The notes under the pieces: model-generated
Databases searched by the model: none
Told to the model about the DNA's origin: nothing
What the model saw: only the letters and a program-made list of their open reading frames with translations
Part shown: in pieces, positions 38,620 through 59,592 of the stretch
Position numbering within the stretch: the stretch's first letter is position 1
How the letters are laid out: every line of letters starts with the position of its first letter
DNA from: Spirochaetota bacterium
GTDB taxonomy: Bacteria; Spirochaetota; Brevinematia; DTOW01
Direction of reading: 5' to 3'
Assembly: GCA_025061835.1 (NCBI GenBank)
Contig: JANXAC010000001.1
Location: 202,684-266,683 of the forward strand
Length of the DNA stretch: 64,000 bases
Program-made: the position numbers and the translations under genes

Positions 38620-40260
38620 GTGAGAAGGTTTTCAAACTTAAAGATTAAGTCCACTCCTTTAAGGATTGCTATAATCTTTTCTATATTCATCTTGTTTTCA
38701 AACCTGATCACGAATTATATAAACTTGTCTCTTAACAATGTTGAGATAGTTAATCAGTCCAAAAAGATATTAGCAAATGACTTAAGGTTGATATACAACT
38801 ACGCAAACAATCAGTATGACCTTTTTGTGAATACCGGTAATTTTGAGAAAGCATTCTCAAACATAGTGGCAAGGAGTATTAATACTTTTGAGAATAAAGG
38901 TTCAGTTTGTATTGGAATATCAAACAATAAAATTATATTTTCCTCATCAACTTTTGAGATAACTAATATCTCTATTACTACTCTTACTAACCTTGAAGGT
39001 TCTGTTGAATTTATGATAAACGGTAATAAGTATTTTGGTTTTTACAAATTCAACCAGAAATTCAACTTTCATATCGTAAGGGCTGAGAATGAAAATGAGT
39101 TTTATGAATACTCAAGGAGAGTTTTTTTCAACATCTCCCTGATTGTTGTTGGAATAACTCTTATAATGTTTGGACTTGGACTGATAGTTGTTTTCTACAT
39201 TCTGAGGTACATAAGAAAGATAACCAATTCAATACTTGAAATGGTAGAAAAAGAGCAACTTGGAATTATAGATGTCAGCAAAGCGGACAACAACGATATA
39301 ACATTCCTTGCGATGTCTTTCAATTCACTCTCATCTCTCATAAACACTCTTCTTGATATATTTAAGAGGTTTGTAAATAAGGATACTGTTATGAAGGTCT
39401 ATCAAGAAAAGGAGGTAAGACTAGAAGGACATACAAAAGAATTATCAATTTTATTCTCTGACATAAGAAGTTTTACATTCATGACAGAAACTCTTGGTAA
39501 CAACATAATAAACCTTCTTAATCTACACTACAGCAACGCTATAAGTAAGATCGTTCAAAACAACGGTTCGGTAATATCCATAATAGGAGATGCTCTTCTG
39601 GTGGTATTCGGGCTTATAAGTGATAAGGGTAAATCCTATGATGCTATTAAATCTGCTTACGATATTCAGAGAGCCGCTAAGATGCTTAGAGATGATATGA
39701 AAAGAGTGAGGGATGATTTAATTTCTATGAAAGGATACTTAACCGAAGAGGAGGAGAAGATATACAAGGCTGTTATGATAGAAGTAGGTGTAGGTATAGA
39801 TGGTGGTGAGATATTCTATGGAAATGTCGGTTCTTACGAGCGGATGACTAACACAGTTATAGGAGATGCCGTAAATTCTGCTTCAAGACTAGAGGGGCTT
39901 ACAAAATACTACAAACTACCTGTTATAGTTTCAGAGTATGTTAAAAATGATGTTGAAAATATGCCATACTATAAGTCGGATATAATATTCCTAGAGATTG
40001 ATAACGTTGCTGTTAAGGGTAAGAAGGAATCAAGAAGAATATACTTGCCTATATTTGAGAATGAAATTTCTGATAGTATGAAGAGGGAGTTTGAGATGTT
40101 TTCAAAAGCACTTAAGTTATACTACGATGGAAATTGGAAAGAGGCTTATAATATATTTGCTTCAGTAAATTTACCTTTTGTTGATATTTTCATTGAAAGA
40201 ACGAGAGTAGGAGTTGCTCCTCAGGGATGGGGTGGTGTATGGGAGATGAAAGAAAAATAG
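38620..40260 (+). CDS. Membrane class III nucleotidyl cyclase, degenerate Lys site
   Basis: 546 aa. GTG start with GAGG upstream and a TATAAT box at 38593. Two spans (about 14-35 and 168-192) enclose a periplasmic sensor of about 130 residues; a HAMP-like linker follows. Cyclase domain: LSILFSDIRSFTFMTETLGN (first metal Asp), SVISIIGDALLVVFG (second metal Asp) and TNTVIGDAVNSASRLEG (transition-state Asn and Arg). The Lys normally in DKFIGD, which helps select adenine, is Ser here. The C-terminus has a helical extension of about 60 residues. Activity is uncertain. Confidence 0.85.
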   Translation: MRRFSNLKIKSTPLRIAIIFSIFILFSNLITNYINLSLNNVEIVNQSKKILANDLRLIYNYANNQYDLFVNTGNFEKAFSNIVARSINTFENKGSVCIGISNNKIIFSSSTFEITNISITTLTNLEGSVEFMINGNKYFGFYKFNQKFNFHIVRAENENEFYEYSRRVFFNISLIVVGITLIMFGLGLIVVFYILRYIRKITNSILEMVEKEQLGIIDVSKADNNDITFLAMSFNSLSSLINTLLDIFKRFVNKDTVMKVYQEKEVRLEGHTKELSILFSDIRSFTFMTETLGNNIINLLNLHYSNAISKIVQNNGSVISIIGDALLVVFGLISDKGKSYDAIKSAYDIQRAAKMLRDDMKRVRDDLISMKGYLTEEEEKIYKAVMIEVGVGIDGGEIFYGNVGSYERMTNTVIGDAVNSASRLEGLTKYYKLPVIVSEYVKNDVENMPYYKSDIIFLEIDNVAVKGKKESRRIYLPIFENEISDSMKREFEMFSKALKLYYDGNWKEAYNIFASVNLPFVDIFIERTRVGVAPQGWGGVWEMKEK

Positions 40261-43641: not shown

Positions 43642-45303
43642 ATGAATGTAGAGGAACTAAAGGATATATACCAGAAGCAAAACGATGTTTTGAGTAAGTA
43701 TAAGCATAGGATATTGATATGTGGGGGTGCGAGTTGTCACTCATTAGGTAGTGTCTCTTTTAAGAAGATAGTTGAGGATGTTTTGGCGAAGTACGACTTA
43801 AAGGATAGTGTTGCTGTTGTGAATGTTGGTTGCCTTGGTCTTTGTGGTAAGGGGCCTCTTGTTAAAATTGAACCGGAAGGGATTATATACACTAATGTTT
43901 CTGTTGAAAATGTCGCAGATATAGTGGAGAGACATTTTGTTAAGAGAACTCCTAGGGAAGATGGAGTAATGAGAGCAGATGATCCGTTCTACAGAAAGCA
44001 GTTCTATATTGTTCTGAAAGACTTTAGTAATGTTGATCCTGCCGACCTAAATTCATATATTGCTTTTGGGGGTTACACAGCGCTTGCAAAGTCTCTTCTG
44101 GAGATGAGTAGGCAGGATGTGATAGAAGAGGTTAAAAAGAGTGGGTTAAGAGGTAGGGGAGGAGCAGGATTTCCAACAGGAATAAAGTGGGAGACTGTGT
44201 CAAAACAACCTTCTGAGACTAAATTTGTTGTGTGTAACGGAGATGAAGGAGACCCTGGTGCGTTTATGGATAGAAGCGTTATGGAGAGTATGCCTCATAG
44301 ATTGCTTGAAGGTATGACTATAGCAGCGTATGCAGTTGGAGCATCTCAAGGATTTATATATGTAAGAGCGGAGTATCCTCTGGCGATAGAAAGACTTTCC
44401 AAAGCGATAAGGGATGCAAGAAGAGCAGGGTTACTTGGAACTAACATAATGGGAACTAACTTTAGTTTTGATATAAGCATCAGAGTAGGTGCTGGTGCTT
44501 TCGTGTGTGGTGAGGAGACTGCTTTGCTTGCTTCAATAGAAGGTAAGAGAGGAATGCCAAGACAGAGACCACCATTTCCTGCCGAAAAGGGTCTCTGGGG
44601 CTATCCTACATTGATAAATAATGTAGAAACTTATGCCAACATTTATGCGATAATCAATAACGGTGGAGATTGGTTCGCTAGTATCGGGACTCAAAAAAGT
44701 AAAGGAACAAAAGTTTTTGCTCTTGCGGGGAAGATAAACAACACAGGTCTTGTTGAGGTGCCGATGGGTGTAACAATAAGAGAGATGATATACGAGATAG
44801 GTGGAGGTATTCAAGGAGGTAAGAAGTTCAAAGCTGTTCAAACGGGAGGTCCTTCTGGAGGATGTATTCCAGAGAAGTTCATTGATCTACCTGTTGATTA
44901 TGAAAGTCTTAGGGAAGTTGGATCTATAATGGGGTCTGGTGGATTTATAGTTATGGATGAAAACACTTGTATGGTTGATGTTGCAAAATTCTTTATGGAA
45001 TTCTGTGCTGACGAGTCCTGTGGAAAGTGTATTCCTTGTAGAGTTGGAACAGTTATTATGAAGGATATACTCCAAAAGATAACAGACGGCAGAGCAACAA
45101 TGAGAGATTATCAAAACCTTAAAGACCTTGCGTATATGGTTCGTGAGATGAGTTTGTGCGGTCTTGGACAAACTGCACCGAATCCTGTTTTGAGTTCAAT
45201 AATGTATTTTGAGGAAGAATACTTGGCACATATAAATGAACGAAGATGTATTGCTAATGTTTGTGAAGTTAAACAGTTTGATGTTGTTAATACTTATCTG
45301 TAA
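43642..45303 (+). CDS. hoxF: Bidirectional [NiFe] hydrogenase diaphorase subunit HoxF
   Basis: NADH-oxidising FMN subunit of a group 3d type hydrogenase, 553 aa. N-terminal thioredoxin-like [2Fe-2S] domain with CGGASC near 27-32 and NVGCLGLCGKGP near 68-72. NuoF core: SGLRGRGGAGFPTGIKWETV (NADH/FMN loop), CNGDEGDPGAFMDRSVMES, and FVCGEETALLASIEGKRGMP. A C-terminal [4Fe-4S] motif DESCGKCIPCRVGTVIMKDI plus SLCGLGQTAPNPVLSS. Clear AGGAG site. First gene of hoxFUYH; an NADPH or NADH preference cannot be settled. Confidence 0.92.
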   Translation: MNVEELKDIYQKQNDVLSKYKHRILICGGASCHSLGSVSFKKIVEDVLAKYDLKDSVAVVNVGCLGLCGKGPLVKIEPEGIIYTNVSVENVADIVERHFVKRTPREDGVMRADDPFYRKQFYIVLKDFSNVDPADLNSYIAFGGYTALAKSLLEMSRQDVIEEVKKSGLRGRGGAGFPTGIKWETVSKQPSETKFVVCNGDEGDPGAFMDRSVMESMPHRLLEGMTIAAYAVGASQGFIYVRAEYPLAIERLSKAIRDARRAGLLGTNIMGTNFSFDISIRVGAGAFVCGEETALLASIEGKRGMPRQRPPFPAEKGLWGYPTLINNVETYANIYAIINNGGDWFASIGTQKSKGTKVFALAGKINNTGLVEVPMGVTIREMIYEIGGGIQGGKKFKAVQTGGPSGGCIPEKFIDLPVDYESLREVGSIMGSGGFIVMDENTCMVDVAKFFMEFCADESCGKCIPCRVGTVIMKDILQKITDGRATMRDYQNLKDLAYMVREMSLCGLGQTAPNPVLSSIMYFEEEYLAHINERRCIANVCEVKQFDVVNTYL

Positions 45304-45312
45304 GGAGGATTT

Positions 45313-46029
45313 ATGAGTGTCTTAACTTTAACTATTAATGATATTCAATGCACTGGTAGAGAAGGACAAACGATTCTTGATATCATCAAAGAGAATAAAA
45401 TATCTCTACCGGTTCTATGTGATCTGAAAGGTCTTACACCAGTTGCGGCTTGTAGGCTCTGTCTAGTTGAAGTAAAGGGAATTCCAAAACTTGTTCCTGC
45501 ATGCACTACCAAAATTCAGGAGGGAATGGTAGTTTATACAGATAGTGAAAAATTAAGAAATTATCGTAGGATGATAGTGGAACTGCTTTTCGCTGAAGGT
45601 AATCATATCTGTGCTTCCTGTGTTGTGAACGGATACTGTGAATTACAGAACCTAGGCTACATGGTAGGGATGGAGAGTGTAAGATTTGACTATTTGTGGC
45701 AGTTGTTCCAAATAGACGCTTCGCATCCTAGATACGTAATGGACCAAAGCAAATGTGTCAAATGCACTAGATGTATAAGAGTTTGCGATGAGGTTGAGGG
45801 AGCTCATGTTTGGGACCTTAAGGGTAGGGGAATAAATGTAAGAGTCATTTCTGGTCTTGACGAACCTTGGGGTCAGGTTAAGGAATGCACTCAATGTGGT
45901 AAATGTGTTCAAGTTTGTCCTGTTGGGGCATTATTTGAAAAAACTGCTACAACTTCAGAAATGATAAAGGATAGATCTTTCCTAGAAAGAATCCTTGAAG
46001 GTAGGGAGGCTAAAATATGGGTAAGGTAA
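45313..46029 (+). CDS. hoxU: Hydrogenase diaphorase subunit HoxU
   Basis: Fe-S electron-transfer subunit related to the NuoG N-terminus, 238 aa. [2Fe-2S] region around LCDLKGLTPVAACRLCLVEV, His-Cys3-type cluster in EGNHICASCVVNGYCELQNL, and two ferredoxin-type [4Fe-4S] motifs CVKCTRCIRVC and CTQCGKCVQVCPVGALFE. Carries electrons from HoxF to HoxY. GGAGG ribosome site; overlaps hoxY by 13 bases. Confidence 0.92.
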   Translation: MSVLTLTINDIQCTGREGQTILDIIKENKISLPVLCDLKGLTPVAACRLCLVEVKGIPKLVPACTTKIQEGMVVYTDSEKLRNYRRMIVELLFAEGNHICASCVVNGYCELQNLGYMVGMESVRFDYLWQLFQIDASHPRYVMDQSKCVKCTRCIRVCDEVEGAHVWDLKGRGINVRVISGLDEPWGQVKECTQCGKCVQVCPVGALFEKTATTSEMIKDRSFLERILEGREAKIWVR

Positions 46030-46580
46030 GGATTGGCACTGTTTGGCTCGGTGGTTGTTCAGGTTGTCATATGTCATTTTTGGATCTAGATGAGAGGCTT
46101 ATAGAACTTGCTCAAGTTGCTGAAATTATGTCCTCTCCAATAACAGATTGGAAGCTACACACTCCTGTAAAAGAGTATCAAGATTATCCAGAAGTTGATA
46201 TATCTTTAGTTGAAGGTGCGGTTGTTAATACAGATAATGTTGAGGTTTTGAAACTTGTGAGAGAGAGAAGTAAGATACTTGTTGCATTTGGTGATTGTGC
46301 AGTAACTGGGAACGTTCCTTCTTACAGAAACCTATTCAAGACTGACGATGTGTTAAACTCAGTGTATCTTGACAAAGCAACACATAACCAGATGATACCA
46401 TCCGACAGAGTAGTCGTTCCAAGGCTACTTAACAAAGTCGTTCCTATATCTCATGTTGTGAAAGTGGATTATTTTATGCCTGGTTGTCCTCCTTCAGCAG
46501 ACTCAATTTGGTATACTATAAAATGCCTTCTTGAAGGCAAGGAACCAGAGTTTTCAAAAGAACATTATAGATACGGTTAA
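46017..46580 (+). CDS. hoxY: [NiFe] hydrogenase small subunit HoxY
   Basis: 187 aa. Four ligands of the proximal [4Fe-4S] cluster are visible: WLGGCSGCHMSFLD, AFGDCAVTGNVPSYRNL and FMPGCPPSADSIWY. The short form lacks the medial and distal cluster domain, as in soluble group 3 enzymes. GGGAGG precedes the ATG within hoxU. Confidence 0.93.
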   Translation: MGKVRIGTVWLGGCSGCHMSFLDLDERLIELAQVAEIMSSPITDWKLHTPVKEYQDYPEVDISLVEGAVVNTDNVEVLKLVRERSKILVAFGDCAVTGNVPSYRNLFKTDDVLNSVYLDKATHNQMIPSDRVVVPRLLNKVVPISHVVKVDYFMPGCPPSADSIWYTIKCLLEGKEPEFSKEHYRYG

Positions 46581-46591
46581 GGAGGTGACCT

Positions 46592-48025
46592 ATGACAAAA
46601 AGAATAATTCTTGATCCAGTCACTAGGATAGAAGGACACGCTAAAATAAGTATATACCTAAACGAAGATGGTGGTATTGATGACGTTCAATTTCATGTTA
46701 CTGAGGTAAGAGGATTTGAGAAGTTCTGCGAAGGCAGGATGTTTACCGAAATGCCCGGGATAACGCAGAGGATATGCGGTATATGTCCTGTAAGTCATTT
46801 GCTCGCATCGGCTAGGGCTGGTGATGACATAATGAGTGTGGAAGTTCCAGAAGCTGCTAGACTCTTAAGATACCTAATGAATTCAGCACAACTTACACAG
46901 TCGCATGCTTTGAGTTTCTTCCATCTATCATCACCAGACTTTCTACTAGGTTTTGACTCTGACCCGGCAAAGAGAAACATATTCGGTGTGATAGAGAAGT
47001 ATCCAGACCTTGCAAGGAGAGGAATCAGACTTAGAAAGTTTGGACAAGATGTTATTGAAATGCTAGGTGGTAAGAAAATACATCCCGCTTGGGCTGTGCC
47101 AGGTGGTGTAAGAGAACCTTTGTCAGAGGATAAGAAGCAGATAATCCTTGATTGGATGCCAGAGGTAAAAGAAACCGTAAGGATTGGACTTGAGTTCTTC
47201 AAGAGGTATATCGATGAGAATAAGGATCTAGTTGAAAACTTCGGTAATTTTCCAAGTTACTTCATGGGACTCGTTAATGAGGATGGTTCATTCAACCATC
47301 ATGATGGCTTGTTGAGAGTTGTTGACTCAAATGGTAATATAGTTTTTGACAAAGTTGATCCTAGAAAATACTATGAATACATAGGAGAAGCGAGTTCTAA
47401 CCATTCATACCTGAAATTCCCATATCTGAAGGCTTTTGGGTTTCCAGAGGGAATGTATAGAGTTGGACCTTTAGCGAGGTTAAATGTTTCTGAAAGTATG
47501 GGAACACCTTTGGCTGATAAGGAGTTAAAAGAGTTTAAATCTCTATCACCAACAGGAGTAGTAACAAGTTCCTTTTTGTATCACTACGCAAGATTGATAG
47601 AGATAGTGCACTGTATTGAGAAAATAGAGGAGATAGTCCAGAATCCAATAATCTATAAAGGAAAAGTAAGGGCTCAAGGTGGTGTTAATAAAGAAATAGG
47701 CGTTGGAGTATCCGAGGCACCAAGAGGAACTCTATTCCATCAATACTGGGTTGATGAAAACGGAGTTCTACAGAAAGTTAATCTCATAATAGCAACGGGT
47801 CAGAATAACTTAGCAATGAATAAAACTGTCCTTCAGATTGCTAAAGCGTACTTAAAGAACGGAAACGGAGAAATAAAAGAAGGAATACTCAACAGAATAG
47901 AAGCAGGTATAAGATGCTACGATCCTTGCTTATCTTGCTCAACACACGCAATCGGTCAGATGCCATTGAAGGTTGAAGTGATTGATCCAAAAGGAAATGT
48001 TATAAAGACAATAACTAGAGATTAG
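46592..48025 (+). CDS. hoxH: [NiFe] hydrogenase large subunit HoxH
   Basis: 477 aa catalytic subunit with the Ni-Fe site. L1 motif [14 protein letters not shown] and L2 motif DPCLSCSTH supply the four Cys ligands. A C-terminal tail of 25 residues follows the L2 His and should be cut off by an endopeptidase after Ni insertion. [14 protein letters not shown] is at the N-terminus. Ribosome site AAGGAGGTGA. No hoxW or hyp maturation gene lies in the window, and there is no hoxE. Confidence 0.95.
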
Positions 48026-48461: not shown

Positions 48462-49802
48462 ATGCTTCCTCTGGTGGTGATAAAAGATACGGACTATCAG
48501 AATCATCTGTTTGATAAACTACCATATCAAAAGATATTCGTAGAACCTAACTACGAGAGTTTGAAAGCGTCCTTGAAGGACTTGGATAGAGTGGTGGTAA
48601 CTTGGAATTCATCCGCTTTTCTAGATGTCTCTATTATTGATAGACTCTCAAAGGAAAGAGGAGAGATATTATTTATTGCAAATCTTCCAGAGTATATGGA
48701 GTTTGAAGTTTGGGATACAAAATTACTCACCGAAGTTCTAGAGAAGTATAAGAAAATTGATAAACCTTTAAGAAACATCTTATCATCTACTGAGCTTGAT
48801 GAGTCTTTGTATTTTGTTGATATTTTAGATAGAGATATAAGGATGTATAGATGGGATTTTGACTTAAGAACTTATAAAGGTAGGGAGATGTTTGAAAGAG
48901 TTGTTGATGAGATTGATTTTTCTAGTAATGTTGTGGAACAGTTAGTGAGTTTAATTTCTTCCAAACCTTTTATCATCACAGAGATACCGTCCTTTTATTA
49001 CATTGAGATTTCCAACGTCAAAGTCAATACAAAATACACTCCATCTTGGGGTAAAGAAGTTGAAAACATAACGGAAGAAAGTTTTAGGAAGATAATCAAT
49101 AAAGTCGTAGATTATTCAAAAACCCTTGGAGTAATGCTAGGGGCATTCAACGAACCTATTTATAATCCGAGATTCAATCAGATTATCAAAGAAATTCTAA
49201 ACTACAAAAAAAGTGAAATCAGTTTCATTTTAAGCACCTCTTTGCCCGAACTTCCTGACACTCTAAAGGAAATTTACTCGGAGACTAGAGATACAAAAGG
49301 TTTCAAAGGATATCCGTTTTTTAGCATCTTCGTTGATATACCTAGCAACAGGAAAGAAGGATTTGAAACACTTAAAGAACTTGACTACGACAAGGTAATG
49401 TCTAATCTAAACGAACTACTCAAGATTGACCCAACGAGACTTTATGTAAAATTTGTCAGAAGCAAATATAATGATGATATTTTACCTTCTTTTCATAAGG
49501 AATACAAGAATTTGAACTTGATAATACAAAGACCTCAAATAGAAGAAATAGTTGCAGTCAATACAATTCTACCATACAGGCTTCCTTGCTATAAACTACA
49601 TACAACTTTGGTAATTCTACCAAACGGGGATGTTGCACTTTGTTTGAACGATACAAGGTTGGATAACATCATTGGTAATGTATTGAATGAAGATGTTAAG
49701 GATATTGCTAATAGAAAAGCAGATGTTTTGAAAAAGCACTTTATAAATGATTTTTCAGGTATATGCGGAAGATGCGTTATATGGGATCAGTTTGACCTTT
49801 GA
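48462..49802 (+). CDS. Spiro-SPASM-like protein with inactive radical SAM core
   Basis: 446 aa. The C-terminus has a SPASM-type cluster site with Cys at about 376, 394, 435 and 438 (YRLPCYKLHTTLVILPNGDV, ALCLND, GICGRCVIWD), including ILPNGDVALCLNDTRLDNIIG. The middle looks like a radical SAM barrel, but where CxxxCxxC should be (about 181-193) it reads IEISNVKVNTKYTP, with no Cys. The N-terminal 150 residues resemble a nucleotidyl- or glycosyltransferase-like alpha/beta domain. Such SPASM proteins are known from spirochaetes (spiro-SPASM family), whose role is unknown. Confidence 0.7.
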   Translation: MLPLVVIKDTDYQNHLFDKLPYQKIFVEPNYESLKASLKDLDRVVVTWNSSAFLDVSIIDRLSKERGEILFIANLPEYMEFEVWDTKLLTEVLEKYKKIDKPLRNILSSTELDESLYFVDILDRDIRMYRWDFDLRTYKGREMFERVVDEIDFSSNVVEQLVSLISSKPFIITEIPSFYYIEISNVKVNTKYTPSWGKEVENITEESFRKIINKVVDYSKTLGVMLGAFNEPIYNPRFNQIIKEILNYKKSEISFILSTSLPELPDTLKEIYSETRDTKGFKGYPFFSIFVDIPSNRKEGFETLKELDYDKVMSNLNELLKIDPTRLYVKFVRSKYNDDILPSFHKEYKNLNLIIQRPQIEEIVAVNTILPYRLPCYKLHTTLVILPNGDVALCLNDTRLDNIIGNVLNEDVKDIANRKADVLKKHFINDFSGICGRCVIWDQFDL

Positions 49803-55222: not shown

Positions 55223-57487
55223 ATGAGAAAGTATATAGTTTCAATTGGAGGAGGAATACTCCAGGAGAGGATAATAAGGGAGATAAATGAACTAGGATTT
55301 GAGTCAATTGTTTTTGACAAAGACCCAGACTGTATAGGCTCAAGGATAGCAAATCTTTTCTTTCCTATTAGTACAAGAGACTATGAAGCGATAATAGAGA
55401 AACTTAAATCAGAGAACCTCCTAGACAAGACAATCTGTGCGATAACTGTTGGGACTGATATGTCTTACACAGTAGCGAAAATCAACGAAATTGTAGCACC
55501 TTATCTTGTCTCAACAGATACAGCACTTAAAACTACTGATAAATCACTTATGCGACAAACACTCAAGGACAGCAGTATAAAAGTTCCAGAATTTTATCTA
55601 TGCTCCAATATTAACGAAGTTAAGGAAGCATTTTCTATCCTATCTTCAAAAAAGAAAGAAGTTGTGATAAAACCAGTTGACAACATGGGGGCTAGGGGTG
55701 TTAGGAAAGTCTTAAGTTTAGATGAACTAGAAGAAGCGTTTACTGAAGCAATCTCCTACTCAATTAAAAGTAGAGTTTTGGTAGAAGAGTTTATTGAAGG
55801 AGATGAGTTAAGTGTTGATGCTTTAGTCTATAAAGGTGAGGTTATGATAACAGGTATCGCGGACAGGATAATAGAATATCCTCCATATTTCGTTGAAACT
55901 GGTCATATAATGCCAACAAACCTACCGAAAGAAGTTGTTGATTTAGCATTATTTGAATTCAAAAAGGCTATAAAAGCAGTTGGTATCGGGAACGGTTGTG
56001 CTAAAGGAGACATAAAGATTTCCAAAGATGGTAATGCATATATAGGTGAGATTGCTTCAAGGCTATCTGGTGGGTTTATGTCAACTCACACGTTTCCTTA
56101 TTCCACTGGTATAAATCTGATGAAGAATGCTTTACTCATCCATCTAGGCAAAGAACCTGAGATTGGTAATTATGAATACAAGTATGTAGCAGTTGAGAGA
56201 GCAATAATACCATACAAGGGGATTGTAACAAAGATACTAGGTGTTGATGAAGCACTACAACTTGAAGGTGTCAAGGATGTTATAATCAAGGTTAAAGAAG
56301 GAGATATAATAAGAGAACCTAAAAGCAACCTTGACAAAGCAGGTAATGTAATAGCAGTCGGGAGAAACAGAGAAGAAGCAATAAGGAATGTGAATAATGC
56401 TATTAGAAGGATAAAAATCTCAACAGAAGTATCTAGCGAGATTAGGGTAATAAGTGAAGAGGATGTGCTTAAGATTGCTAAAGAGAGGTTTAACGGTAGT
56501 TGTTACGTTTGTAGGGAATGTAATGGTGAGGCTTGTAGAGGCAGGATGCCAGGTATAGGAGGAGTTGGGACAGGTCAAACATTCGTTGAGAATGTAAAAG
56601 CACTTAAGAGGTACAAAATCCTACCAAGATACATATACACTAACTCTTTTGAGATTGACACATCGGTTGACTTTCTTGGGATTAGATTGAGTTTGCCCAT
56701 TGTTGTCTCACCTGTGACTGGGACTAAAACTAATCTCGGTGGTGTGGTTGATGAACTTGACTACCTAAGATGGGTTATTAAGGGTGCTATGTATTCTGGA
56801 ACTATCGCTATGGTTGGTGATAGTGCTACCCCTGACAAATACAAAGTAGGTATAAGAGCAATGCTTGAGAACTTTGGAAACGGAATAGGTATCTACAAAC
56901 CAAGAAAAGATAATAACGAAATAATAAAAAGAATAAGGGAAGCAGAAAACGCTGGAGCAATAGCGGTCGGAATGGACATAGATGGAATATCAATTATTAC
57001 AATGAAATTAAAGAATCAAGAAGTTTCCCCAAAAGGTCTAGATGAACTTAAGTATATCATCTCTTCAACCAAACTACCTTTTGTTGTAAAAGGTGTTATG
57101 ACTCCAGAAGATGCTATCCTTGCATACGAGGCAGGTGCTAGAGTTATAATGGTGTCAAACCACGGTGGTAGAGTAAATGACTCATTACCTTCTACCATAG
57201 ATGTTTTACCTAGTATTGTTGAAGTTTTGAAAGATAAAGATGTCATTATAGGGATTGATGGTGGATTTAGAAGTGGTGCCGATGTTGTTAAGGCTTTGTG
57301 TATCGGTGCTCACTTTGTCGGGATTGGGAGACCTATCACAATCTACGCGTTTGGAGGAGGGGTCGATGGTGTCAAAAATTATTTTGACAAGATAAAAAAT
57401 GAGATGAAAGAAACTATGAAAATCTTGGGCGTTAGGTCAATAAAAGAACTCAAACCTGGGCTCATTTTTAGATCATCTGTTGTATAG
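55223..57487 (+). CDS. ATP-grasp ligase fused to FMN-dependent 2-hydroxyacid dehydrogenase
   Basis: 754 aa from ATG 55223. Residues 1-400: ATP-grasp enzyme (YIVSIGGGILQERIIREINE; VVIKPVDNMGARGVRKVLSL; LVEEFIEGDELSVDALVYKG; IGEIASRLSGGFMSTHTFPY). At 427-440 a Cys cluster, CYVCRECNGEACRG. About 450-754: FMN alpha-hydroxyacid oxidase barrel with PIVVSPVTGTKTNLGGVVDE, FVVKGVMTPEDAILAYEAGA, catalytic SNHGGRVNDSLPSTIDVLP and DGGFRSGADVVKALCIGAHF. Stand-alone forms of the second half exist in anaerobes; fusion to an ATP-grasp domain is unusual to me. It suggests a substrate that is ligated then oxidised. No ribosome site; an in-frame ATG at 55190 is less likely. Confidence 0.85.
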   Translation: MRKYIVSIGGGILQERIIREINELGFESIVFDKDPDCIGSRIANLFFPISTRDYEAIIEKLKSENLLDKTICAITVGTDMSYTVAKINEIVAPYLVSTDTALKTTDKSLMRQTLKDSSIKVPEFYLCSNINEVKEAFSILSSKKKEVVIKPVDNMGARGVRKVLSLDELEEAFTEAISYSIKSRVLVEEFIEGDELSVDALVYKGEVMITGIADRIIEYPPYFVETGHIMPTNLPKEVVDLALFEFKKAIKAVGIGNGCAKGDIKISKDGNAYIGEIASRLSGGFMSTHTFPYSTGINLMKNALLIHLGKEPEIGNYEYKYVAVERAIIPYKGIVTKILGVDEALQLEGVKDVIIKVKEGDIIREPKSNLDKAGNVIAVGRNREEAIRNVNNAIRRIKISTEVSSEIRVISEEDVLKIAKERFNGSCYVCRECNGEACRGRMPGIGGVGTGQTFVENVKALKRYKILPRYIYTNSFEIDTSVDFLGIRLSLPIVVSPVTGTKTNLGGVVDELDYLRWVIKGAMYSGTIAMVGDSATPDKYKVGIRAMLENFGNGIGIYKPRKDNNEIIKRIREAENAGAIAVGMDIDGISIITMKLKNQEVSPKGLDELKYIISSTKLPFVVKGVMTPEDAILAYEAGARVIMVSNHGGRVNDSLPSTIDVLPSIVEVLKDKDVIIGIDGGFRSGADVVKALCIGAHFVGIGRPITIYAFGGGVDGVKNYFDKIKNEMKETMKILGVRSIKELKPGLIFRSSVV

Positions 57488-57549: not shown

Positions 57550-59592
57550 ATGAACAATACCTTTAAGATAAGGATCAGTCTAGGTAGAAAAATATTTCTA
57601 TCAGTGCTAGTTGTAATAATTCTGATGGTTTCTATACTTTACACATCAACCACTCGCTCAATCACGGAAGGACTAGAGAGCGAAATGAAGGTGAGAGGCA
57701 CATCAATATCAAAGAATGTATCTTCTTCATTATCTACTATTCTATCTTCAATAATAGCTGAAAGGATCGCAAGAAACCCTAACCTAGAAAAAGAAATCTT
57801 CTCATCAAAAGAGATAATGTCCTCCATATTTTCAGAACTCCAGATAAAAGAAGAATACATAAACCTTATAGAAACATTTGCAGAGATACCTAAAACTGAA
57901 GATATAATGTGGGCTACTGCTGTTGATATTGATAACAATGTCCTTGCTCACTCAAGTCCAGATATAGGCTTTATGTCTAAATTCAACTTACCTAAAGGAA
58001 CATACAACAATAGAGACATTCTGATTATATACAACATACTACTTACTAATCTTGTTGTTAGCAAGAAGAACTTCTTTGAGAGAACAATATCAAGGCTTTT
58101 TGGAGGAGAGATAAAATTCAAAGTTTCAACAGATAAACTGATTAGCATGGCTTCTGAAAAACTTTCCATAGATAGTAATTATGCGTCTAAACTTATTAAC
58201 ACTGCGATAAGAAATTTAGATAGCAATCTCAAGAACAGTTATGAAAAACTATCTGTTCTCTACTGGCAGATAAAGTCAGTTCAGAGAAAATATGATCAAG
58301 GAAAGTTTGGAGATGAATTTAGAAACGCACTTTCAGAATTGGTAGAAATTTTTGAATATGAGTATGTGACTTATGAAATAGCAGACAAATACTTTAGTAA
58401 GTTTAAAAGCTTCATAAATAACCGAAAGAGCTCAATTACAAAGGATGATTACAATTATATAATTTCTCTAATTGACCAGTTTTTTAGTAGTAGTTTTGGT
58501 ATAACTGGTTTTCTACAGTATTACTATGAAAGTTATGGTGGCAGAAGTGAAAGAAGACTACTTTTCTCCTATCCTGTTCTCATAAAAGGCGACATTGACA
58601 AATATGTTGCGAACCTCTACATAGGTATGTCAACAGAAAGTATTGACAAAACTATTCAAACTGTTGAAAGACAAGTTCAGATTGGTGTCTTGATTGCTAT
58701 AATAATTGCTATACTGCTTGTAGTCTTTCTATCTAGCAGAATATCCAAAGGTGCTAGAATAATAACAAACGCTATGCAGAAACTTTCAGAAGGAGACCTA
58801 ACGGTTAGAGCACTGGTTAAGTCTAGAGATGAAATAGGGTTTATAGCATCAAACTTCAATAGTATGGTAGAGCAGATCGAAGAGAAGGAGAAGATGAGAG
58901 ATATAATGAACAAGGTTGTTTCTGAAGAGATTGCGAAGGAACTTATGAAGAAAGGTATAGAGCTAGGTGGTGAGATGAGGTTCGTAAGCATGTTATTTTC
59001 AGATATAAGAGGTTTTACATCAATGAGTGAGAAAATGGATCCAAGAGACCTTATATCCATACTCAACGAATATATGACCGAAATGGTTGAGATTGTGAAG
59101 AGGTATAAAGGAGTTGTTGATAAATTCGTAGGTGATGAGATAATGGTAGTTTATGGAGCACCTGTATCATTCGGAGAACAAAATGATGCTTTACTATCCG
59201 TTGTAACTGCTTATGAGATGATAAAAAGGATGGATACTCTTCACGAGCGATGGAAAGAGGAAGGTAAGCCTTTACTAATGCCTGGTATAGGTATAAATTC
59301 GGGAAATGTCGTTGCAGGGAATATGGGGTCAAAAGACAGGTTAAGTTACACTGTAATAGGTGATGCTGTAAACACTGCTGCTAGGCTATGTGGAGCAGCA
59401 CCCGGAAAGACCTGTATCGTAAGTGAGAACACTTACTCTCTAGTAAAAGACTTCTTTGAGTTTGAAGAGCAGGAACCTATAAAAGTTAAAGGGAAAAGCG
59501 AACCATTGAGAATATACAAAGTAGTATCCATTAACCAGTTTGGATACCAAAAAGTTGAAGAGATTCTCTCCAATACACATCACTCTACATAA
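57550..59592 (+). CDS. HAMP-linked class III adenylate/guanylate cyclase
   Basis: 680 aa. First span about 14-36, large periplasmic sensor (about 40-370, helical, possibly dCache/CHASE-like), second span about 377-397 (IGVLIAIIIAILLVVFLSSR), HAMP (RISKGARIITNAMQKLSEGD), then the cyclase domain: VSMLFSDIRGFTSMSEKMDP, VVDKFVGDEIMVVYGAP with the Lys retained, GIGINSGNVVAGNMGSKDRL and SYTVIGDAVNTAARLCG. All metal and transition-state residues present, so likely active. Unlike the 38.6-kb cyclase it keeps the adenine-contacting Lys. Confidence 0.92.
   Translation: MNNTFKIRISLGRKIFLSVLVVIILMVSILYTSTTRSITEGLESEMKVRGTSISKNVSSSLSTILSSIIAERIARNPNLEKEIFSSKEIMSSIFSELQIKEEYINLIETFAEIPKTEDIMWATAVDIDNNVLAHSSPDIGFMSKFNLPKGTYNNRDILIIYNILLTNLVVSKKNFFERTISRLFGGEIKFKVSTDKLISMASEKLSIDSNYASKLINTAIRNLDSNLKNSYEKLSVLYWQIKSVQRKYDQGKFGDEFRNALSELVEIFEYEYVTYEIADKYFSKFKSFINNRKSSITKDDYNYIISLIDQFFSSSFGITGFLQYYYESYGGRSERRLLFSYPVLIKGDIDKYVANLYIGMSTESIDKTIQTVERQVQIGVLIAIIIAILLVVFLSSRISKGARIITNAMQKLSEGDLTVRALVKSRDEIGFIASNFNSMVEQIEEKEKMRDIMNKVVSEEIAKELMKKGIELGGEMRFVSMLFSDIRGFTSMSEKMDPRDLISILNEYMTEMVEIVKRYKGVVDKFVGDEIMVVYGAPVSFGEQNDALLSVVTAYEMIKRMDTLHERWKEEGKPLLMPGIGINSGNVVAGNMGSKDRLSYTVIGDAVNTAARLCGAAPGKTCIVSENTYSLVKDFFEFEEQEPIKVKGKSEPLRIYKVVSINQFGYQKVEEILSNTHHST

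Follow-up and report, generated by a model that had tools for sequence, protein, structure and literature searches.

In the accessible parts of the respective reports, the ATP-grasp protein SfmE (SO_3265) of Shewanella oneidensis is required for full flagellin modification, the Shewanella flagellin glycan is given as a 274-Da residue of the mono-N-acetyl pseudaminic type together with a methylated moiety that contains no nitrogen (PMC3765264), and a C. difficile flagellin cluster also contains an ATP-grasp gene (PMC5207246). Within spirochaetes, the flagellins of T. denticola carry a glycan of 450.2 Da that is essential to filament assembly and motility, according to the accessible part of that article (PMC9481697).

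Here we analysed a gene in a 64,000-nucleotide stretch (hereafter the window) of contig JANXAC010000001.1 from a Spirochaetota bacterium (assembly GCA_025061835.1; Brevinematia, DTOW01). The gene joins an ATP-grasp half to an FMN half. As described in the accessible text, SfmE is likewise an ATP-grasp_4-type ligase, and its flagellin-modification operon also encodes a methyltransferase, but the protein stands alone without an FMN half and has a TPP enzyme and a FabG-like reductase as partners; this comparison is by description, not by sequence (PMC3765264). The initial annotation of the window knew of no described enzyme of the fused kind. This held for function but not for architecture, which has appeared once in print: an expression-table line lists Leptospira interrogans LA2659 as an FMN-dependent isomerase with an ATP-grasp fold and gives no function there (PMC2964297). 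The table entry, set beside the fusion by its description, implies that LA2659 probably has the same architecture (PMC2964297). Our search of openly available texts found no function reported for the fusion. We propose, with a probability of roughly 60%, that it acts as a bifunctional enzyme in a flagellar-glycan pathway shared across spirochaetes, making and attaching the acyl side chain of a nonulosonic-acid glycan.

The fusion is a genuine gene conserved across spirochaetes

The gene and its parts lie in the window as follows.

55223..57487, forward strand: fusion gene, 754 aa, full length in 41 of 60 relatives
55223..56434, forward strand: ATP-grasp half, aa 1-404, L-amino-acid-ligase type with LAL_C2 (Pfam; 3vot fold match)
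56414..56476, forward strand: inter-domain linker proper, aa 398-418, poorly conserved (nonsynonymous difference 0.32-0.51)
56444..57484, forward strand: FMN 2-hydroxyacid-oxidase-type half, aa 408-754 (Pfam; HAO1 and mandelate oxidase folds)
56501..56536, forward strand: Cys4 motif C427-x2-C430-x2-C433-x4-C438 opening the FMN half at its N-terminus (retained in 125 of 129 full-length rows)
57155..57172, forward strand: SNHGGR active-site motif, aa 645-650, with His647 and Arg650 (sequence and alignment)

A single unbroken frame runs from the ATG at 55223 to the stop at 57487. Its product matches Pfam ATP-grasp_4 at aa 146-288 (59.9 bits against a curated cut-off of 27), LAL_C2 at aa 329-402 (71.4 bits against 29.4) and FMN_dh, with the best stretch at aa 606-748 (208 bits against 24.9), in agreement with the earlier proposal of an acid-ligase-type ATP-grasp domain and an FMN domain on one polypeptide. 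Four genomes of the same family encode the identical full-length architecture at 71-76% protein identity. Comparison with the four nearest relatives gave 0.13-0.19 nonsynonymous and 0.71-0.82 synonymous differences per site for both halves, and purifying selection thus acts on each of them. The junction is therefore no sequencing or assembly error, and an artefact caused by misassembly or a frameshift is ruled out.

The same domain order was sought in other genomes and found widely. One frame spans both halves in the 41 full-length relatives, the window's own genome included, and in 4 of these the FMN half is decayed. When we surveyed the phylum (159 Spirochaetota genomes of at least 90% completeness), 148 contained a match. 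At least 81 full-span fusions were present among the matches listed in this survey, where those of two further genomes (G208 and G041) are nearly full-span or broken at contig ends; among the same matches, the FMN half matches weakly in at least 24 genomes of family f14. The fusion is also present in 21 of 40 Nitrospinota genomes, and the best 80 of 222 relatives in a scan of genome contigs were mostly from Spirochaetota, with Nitrospinota and one contig labelled Coatesbacteria. No relative was encoded in the 75 pattern-matching viral stretches examined for a viral origin. The fusion is real and widely conserved in spirochaetes.

The ATP-grasp half resembles acid-amine ligases

An AlphaFold model built from 25 fusions reached a mean pLDDT of 88.9 and a pTM of 0.81. 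In this model the ATP-grasp half matched the L-amino-acid ligase BL00235 (3vot; Z 39.7, rmsd 2.5, 378 residues aligned) and 4dim (Z 38.2, rmsd 5.1, 383 aligned), with which it shares the fold over its whole length at an identity of 22-24%, and its substrates are expected to differ from theirs. At the head of the Foldseek list for the whole model stood 4dim and pyruvate carboxylases; the carboxylase matches are mixed ones over two domains and were not used. The residue alignment comprised 169 rows, of which 146 were distinct and 129 full length. Lys107, Lys150, Glu188, Glu276 and Arg280, which we take to be the nucleotide- and metal-site residues of the ATP-grasp half, are kept in 126-129 of the 129 full-length rows, the exceptions being rows of family f21. 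By domain and predicted fold, the ATP-grasp half is of the acid-amine ligase type, and formation of an acyl amide is its likely reaction.

The FMN half is a divergent relative of hydroxyacid oxidases that begins with a Cys4 motif

The modelled FMN half aligned with hydroxyacid oxidase 1 (HAO1, 6w45) at Z 37.7 and rmsd 2.6 over 316 residues, and with 4-hydroxymandelate oxidase at Z about 37 and rmsd 2.6 over about 316 residues. It thus has a common fold with both enzymes (Z about 37) at 27-30% identity, and it retains their His, Arg, Lys, Asp and FMN-site residues. In the window protein these are His647, Arg650, Lys623 and Asp587, presumably corresponding to the active-site residues of FMN hydroxyacid oxidases. 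Unlike those enzymes, the FMN half has an N-terminal Cys4 motif and does not conserve the tyrosine of the QxY motif (presumably Tyr129 of glycolate oxidase), which is gapped in the alignments, where a KPR motif takes its place. No alignment to hydroxyacid oxidases was obtained for the region of their N-terminal active-site tyrosine (Tyr24, as we assume), which is here occupied by the Cys4 motif. His647 is a His in 116 of the 129 full-length rows; it is lost in four decayed rows and replaced by Arg or Lys in nine fusions that retain all four Cys. The His-Gly-Gly-Arg motif reported earlier is accordingly intact in the window protein but is not a rule of the family. In an NCBIfam scan, the equivalogs for L-lactate oxidase, LldD and MftD all scored far below their cut-offs (MftD, 117 versus 470.85 bits). 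Because the Tyr129 equivalent is not conserved and His647 varies, the residue pattern marks the FMN half as a relative of hydroxyacid oxidases and not a standard member.

The four Cys (C427, C430, C433 and C438) had initially been placed in a Cys-rich linker between the domains. This assignment is ruled out, since the stretch also starts stand-alone FMN proteins and is well conserved: its nonsynonymous difference was 0.04-0.22 in four pairs, versus 0.32-0.51 for aa 398-418, and the real linker is at aa ~398-418. The Cys4 motif opens both clostridial stand-alone FMN proteins and separate spirochaete FMN genes. The clostridial proteins, annotated as 'alpha-hydroxy-acid oxidizing protein' (Acetoanaerobium, Vescimonas), have the same Cys4 start and barrel at 37-43% identity but no ATP-grasp half; that of Acetoanaerobium is 342 aa long and 43% identical. 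We know of no function for these proteins. Retention of all four Cys in 125 of the 129 full-length rows suggests a putative metal or Fe-S site, in a loop that is poorly modelled (pLDDT below 50 at aa 428-430 and 442-447).

Gene order links the ATP-grasp gene to flagella

In 13 loci from six families (L029, L199, L200 and L249-L258; f11, f22, f32, f37, f41 and f45), all of ATP-only lineages and chosen for close gene coordinates, the ATP-grasp gene occupies a fixed place in the order spiro-SPASM, Y, CTP_transf_3 cytidylyltransferase, PseG-like/methyltransferase, ATP-grasp, amidase-like, (GerMN-like), FlaA. The names amidase-like and GerMN-like were given from reading the sequences, and one of the 13 loci (L256) showed no amidase-like gene. 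In a family scan the spiro-SPASM protein of this operon reached 665 bits, where the cut-off is 250; Pfam recognised the cytidylyltransferase and the methyltransferase, and family search confirmed FlaA, CheA and the flagellins. CheA and CheW come after FlaA in L199. Gene Y, about 317-370 aa long and located between spiro-SPASM and the cytidylyltransferase (L199, L200, L249-L258), matched no Pfam or NCBIfam family in either of the two copies scanned. Among the 27 ATP-only genomes with both genes in the matches listed, spiro-SPASM lies within about 7 kb of the ATP-grasp gene in 16 and not in 11. Assignment to a flagellar-glycan pathway is supported by this gene order.

The FMN half has flagellar associations as well. 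In genome G114, where the two halves are separate genes, the FMN gene lies in a spiro-SPASM cluster (spiro-SPASM, Y, cytidylyltransferase-methyltransferase, HAD, FMN) and the ATP-grasp gene is elsewhere. Genome G002, of the window's own genus, has a flagellar rod gene at 72 bp and two flagellin genes at 4-6 kb from the fusion.

Envelope or capsule polysaccharide synthesis, in which amino-acid or hydroxyacid amides would be formed on sugars and the flagellar link would hold in some lineages only, is an unlikely reading. The closest plasmid homologues of the ATP-grasp half (34-35% identity) do adjoin sugar transferases in capsule clusters, but the FlaA-operon order in the 13 loci, the flagellin neighbours in the window's genus and the retention of both halves in the small genome of G114 speak for the flagellar glycan. 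The flagellar-glycan pathway is further favoured by a plasmid homologue of the ATP-grasp half that sits among pseB, pseC, pseF, FabG, transketolase and methyltransferase genes.

Co-occurrence across the phylum agrees with the operon association seen in the 13 loci. Spiro-SPASM is present in 151 and the ATP-grasp half in 148 of the 159 genomes; the same eight lack both (G190 and seven of family f35, whose genomes we take to be of Borrelia-like size), another three contain spiro-SPASM without the ATP-grasp half, and none shows the reverse. This co-absence supports a link between the two without proving it, because it may represent one or two ancestral losses.

In the window, as in most fused genomes, the fusion lies outside the FlaA operon, and no FlaA match was found within the window. 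A spiro-SPASM-like gene is located 5.4 kb upstream of the fusion.

48462..49802, forward strand: spiro-SPASM-like gene (TIGR04321, E 3.4e-44, below cut-off; SPASM domain PF13186)

This gene is a probable pathway partner of the fusion. Its product had no radical-SAM domain match in the family search, and the window's lineage has possibly lost the radical-SAM chemistry of spiro-SPASM, judging by this protein. Proximity of spiro-SPASM to the fusion was noticed in two fused genomes (G000 and G119). Of 20 spiro-SPASM loci, mainly from fused genomes, 12 have a cytidylyltransferase nearby; the operon is whole through FlaA, without an ATP-grasp gene at its place, in L234, L236, L240 and L247 (fused or f21), and absent from six loci that belong to the same class as the window.

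No neighbourhood is conserved over all fused loci above the lineage level. In 3 of 43 independent contexts among 107 loci, the immediate neighbour is a tRNA-modification gene, its family confirmed by search: MnmA (L039, L040, L062, L159), MnmE (L057, L064, L071, L127, L156) or MnmG (L146, L149). These neighbours would fit a role in wobble-uridine (U34) tRNA modification, in which the FMN half would oxidise the glycine-derived group of cmnm5U and the ATP-grasp half would acylate the amine. We regard this role as very improbable: there is no anticorrelation with MnmL-type genes (TIGR01212 is over its cut-off in 38 of 60 relatives), MnmM occurs in 2 of 60, the fusion has no RNA-binding part, and the Mnm-neighbour test is post hoc. 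The flagellar context, by comparison, accounts for both halves, even when they are separated.

A probable single ancestral fusion, followed by fission and decay

In a tree of the FMN half, every fused sequence falls in one supported clade. In a tree of the ATP-grasp half the ATP-only sequences are scattered among fused ones with four label changes. The separate FMN genes of G114, G035, G046 and G025 nest within the fused clade of the FMN-half tree, which indicates that these halves were released by fission; those of f14 and two others cluster with a clostridial protein. For the ATP-half tree, 48 of 113 ordinary rows, 30 special rows and 4 outgroups were offered, and 78 are in the tree; the FMN-half tree omits the four decayed FMN halves. 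Both are quick trees with long-branch warnings, including for f21 rows and Treponema-type FMN rows, and the fused clade itself is more secure than the exact position of the fission rows. The trees suggest one ancestral fusion, with FMN-half loss, FMN-half decay or a gene split later in some lineages.

In family f14 the decay of the FMN half appears to have been step-wise, as the decayed rows group with two rows having Lys at position 647 in the ATP-half tree. The FMN half of L023, L024, L025 and L066 (f14) lacks Cys4 and His-Gly-Gly-Arg, yet is still read in frame without a stop. A second match occurs in most f14 genomes with a decayed FMN half; in the loci read it is a separate clostridial-type FMN gene. 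The reverse case occurs in family f21, where the ATP-grasp half of L026, L072 and L074 has decayed and the FMN half is intact; in these genomes an intact separate ATP-grasp gene stands elsewhere.

G114 has a genome of 1,139,633 bp, which we take to be the size of that of Treponema pallidum, and retains both halves as separate genes. The initial annotation had predicted a two-step pathway on one polypeptide; the two steps survive this comparison, since halves retained as separate genes after fission point to two steps of one pathway. The FMN-half step is dispensable or variable, because the FMN half has been lost, has decayed or has a changed His in several lineages. The wording of that annotation also implied general two-step metabolism outside glycans, such as a dipeptide or 2-hydroxyacid catabolic step. 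The folds alone would allow it, but we find it improbable in view of the flagellar gene context, and retention in a 1.14-Mb genome suggests little place in general catabolism.

Proposed role in flagellar glycan synthesis

In the flagellar-glycan pathway proposed here, the ATP-grasp half would use ATP to join a carboxylic acid to the amino group of a nonulosonic acid of the pseudaminic type, either nucleotide-activated or free. The initial annotation had placed ligation first and oxidation second; the gene context suggests that the FMN half acts on the acid, before or after ligation. It would interconvert a 2-hydroxy and a 2-keto acid and in this way set the alpha carbon of the acyl group, more probably ahead of ligation than after it. 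The methyltransferase, cytidylyltransferase and PseG-like protein of the FlaA operon would perform neighbouring steps, and the glycan product would decorate flagellins. The substrates, redox direction, cluster type and target protein are those that we infer for this scheme.

The T. denticola flagellin glycan is reportedly a mono-acetyl nonulosonic acid bearing a 2-methoxy-4,5,6-trihydroxyhexanoyl amide, a residue for which we computed a mass of 450.185. Such a glycan would need a carboxylate-amine ligase, a redox step at C2 of the acid and a methyltransferase. The Shewanella protein SfmE is a precedent for an ATP-grasp protein in flagellin modification. HpcH/HpaI-type aldolases make 2-keto-3-deoxy acids, and in Nitrospinota the gene for such an aldolase comes immediately after the fusion in each of 12 loci; loci of this kind are L161-L172 and L259-L262. 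An aldolase homologue is present in 21 of the 60 relatives and absent from the window's genome, which rules out the aldolase as an obligate partner in Spirochaetota.

We tentatively extend the proposal to a bolder form, which we consider rather doubtful as a whole. In most spirochaetes, a single fused enzyme would make and install the hydroxyacyl amide on a flagellar nonulosonic acid; its FMN half would be a Cys4 Fe-S-coupled 2-keto-3-deoxy-acid reductase, working in reverse of the known FMN hydroxyacid oxidases, and the Borrelia-sized family and one relative would have lost the pathway. If the main proposal is right, a gene present in 148 of the 159 spirochaete genomes examined, probably including Leptospira and Treponema, would gain a function, as would spiro-SPASM and the genes around it. 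It would become directly testable where the unusual acyl group of spirochaete flagellins comes from, and the FMN hydroxyacid-oxidase fold would have a new use.

Other genes in the window

By reading only, an apparent hydrogenase operon with a NuoF-like subunit was recognised at 43642-48025 of the window. Two membrane proteins with adenylate-cyclase-like C-termini were likewise read at 38620-40260 and 57550-59592, the latter gene lying immediately downstream of the fusion.
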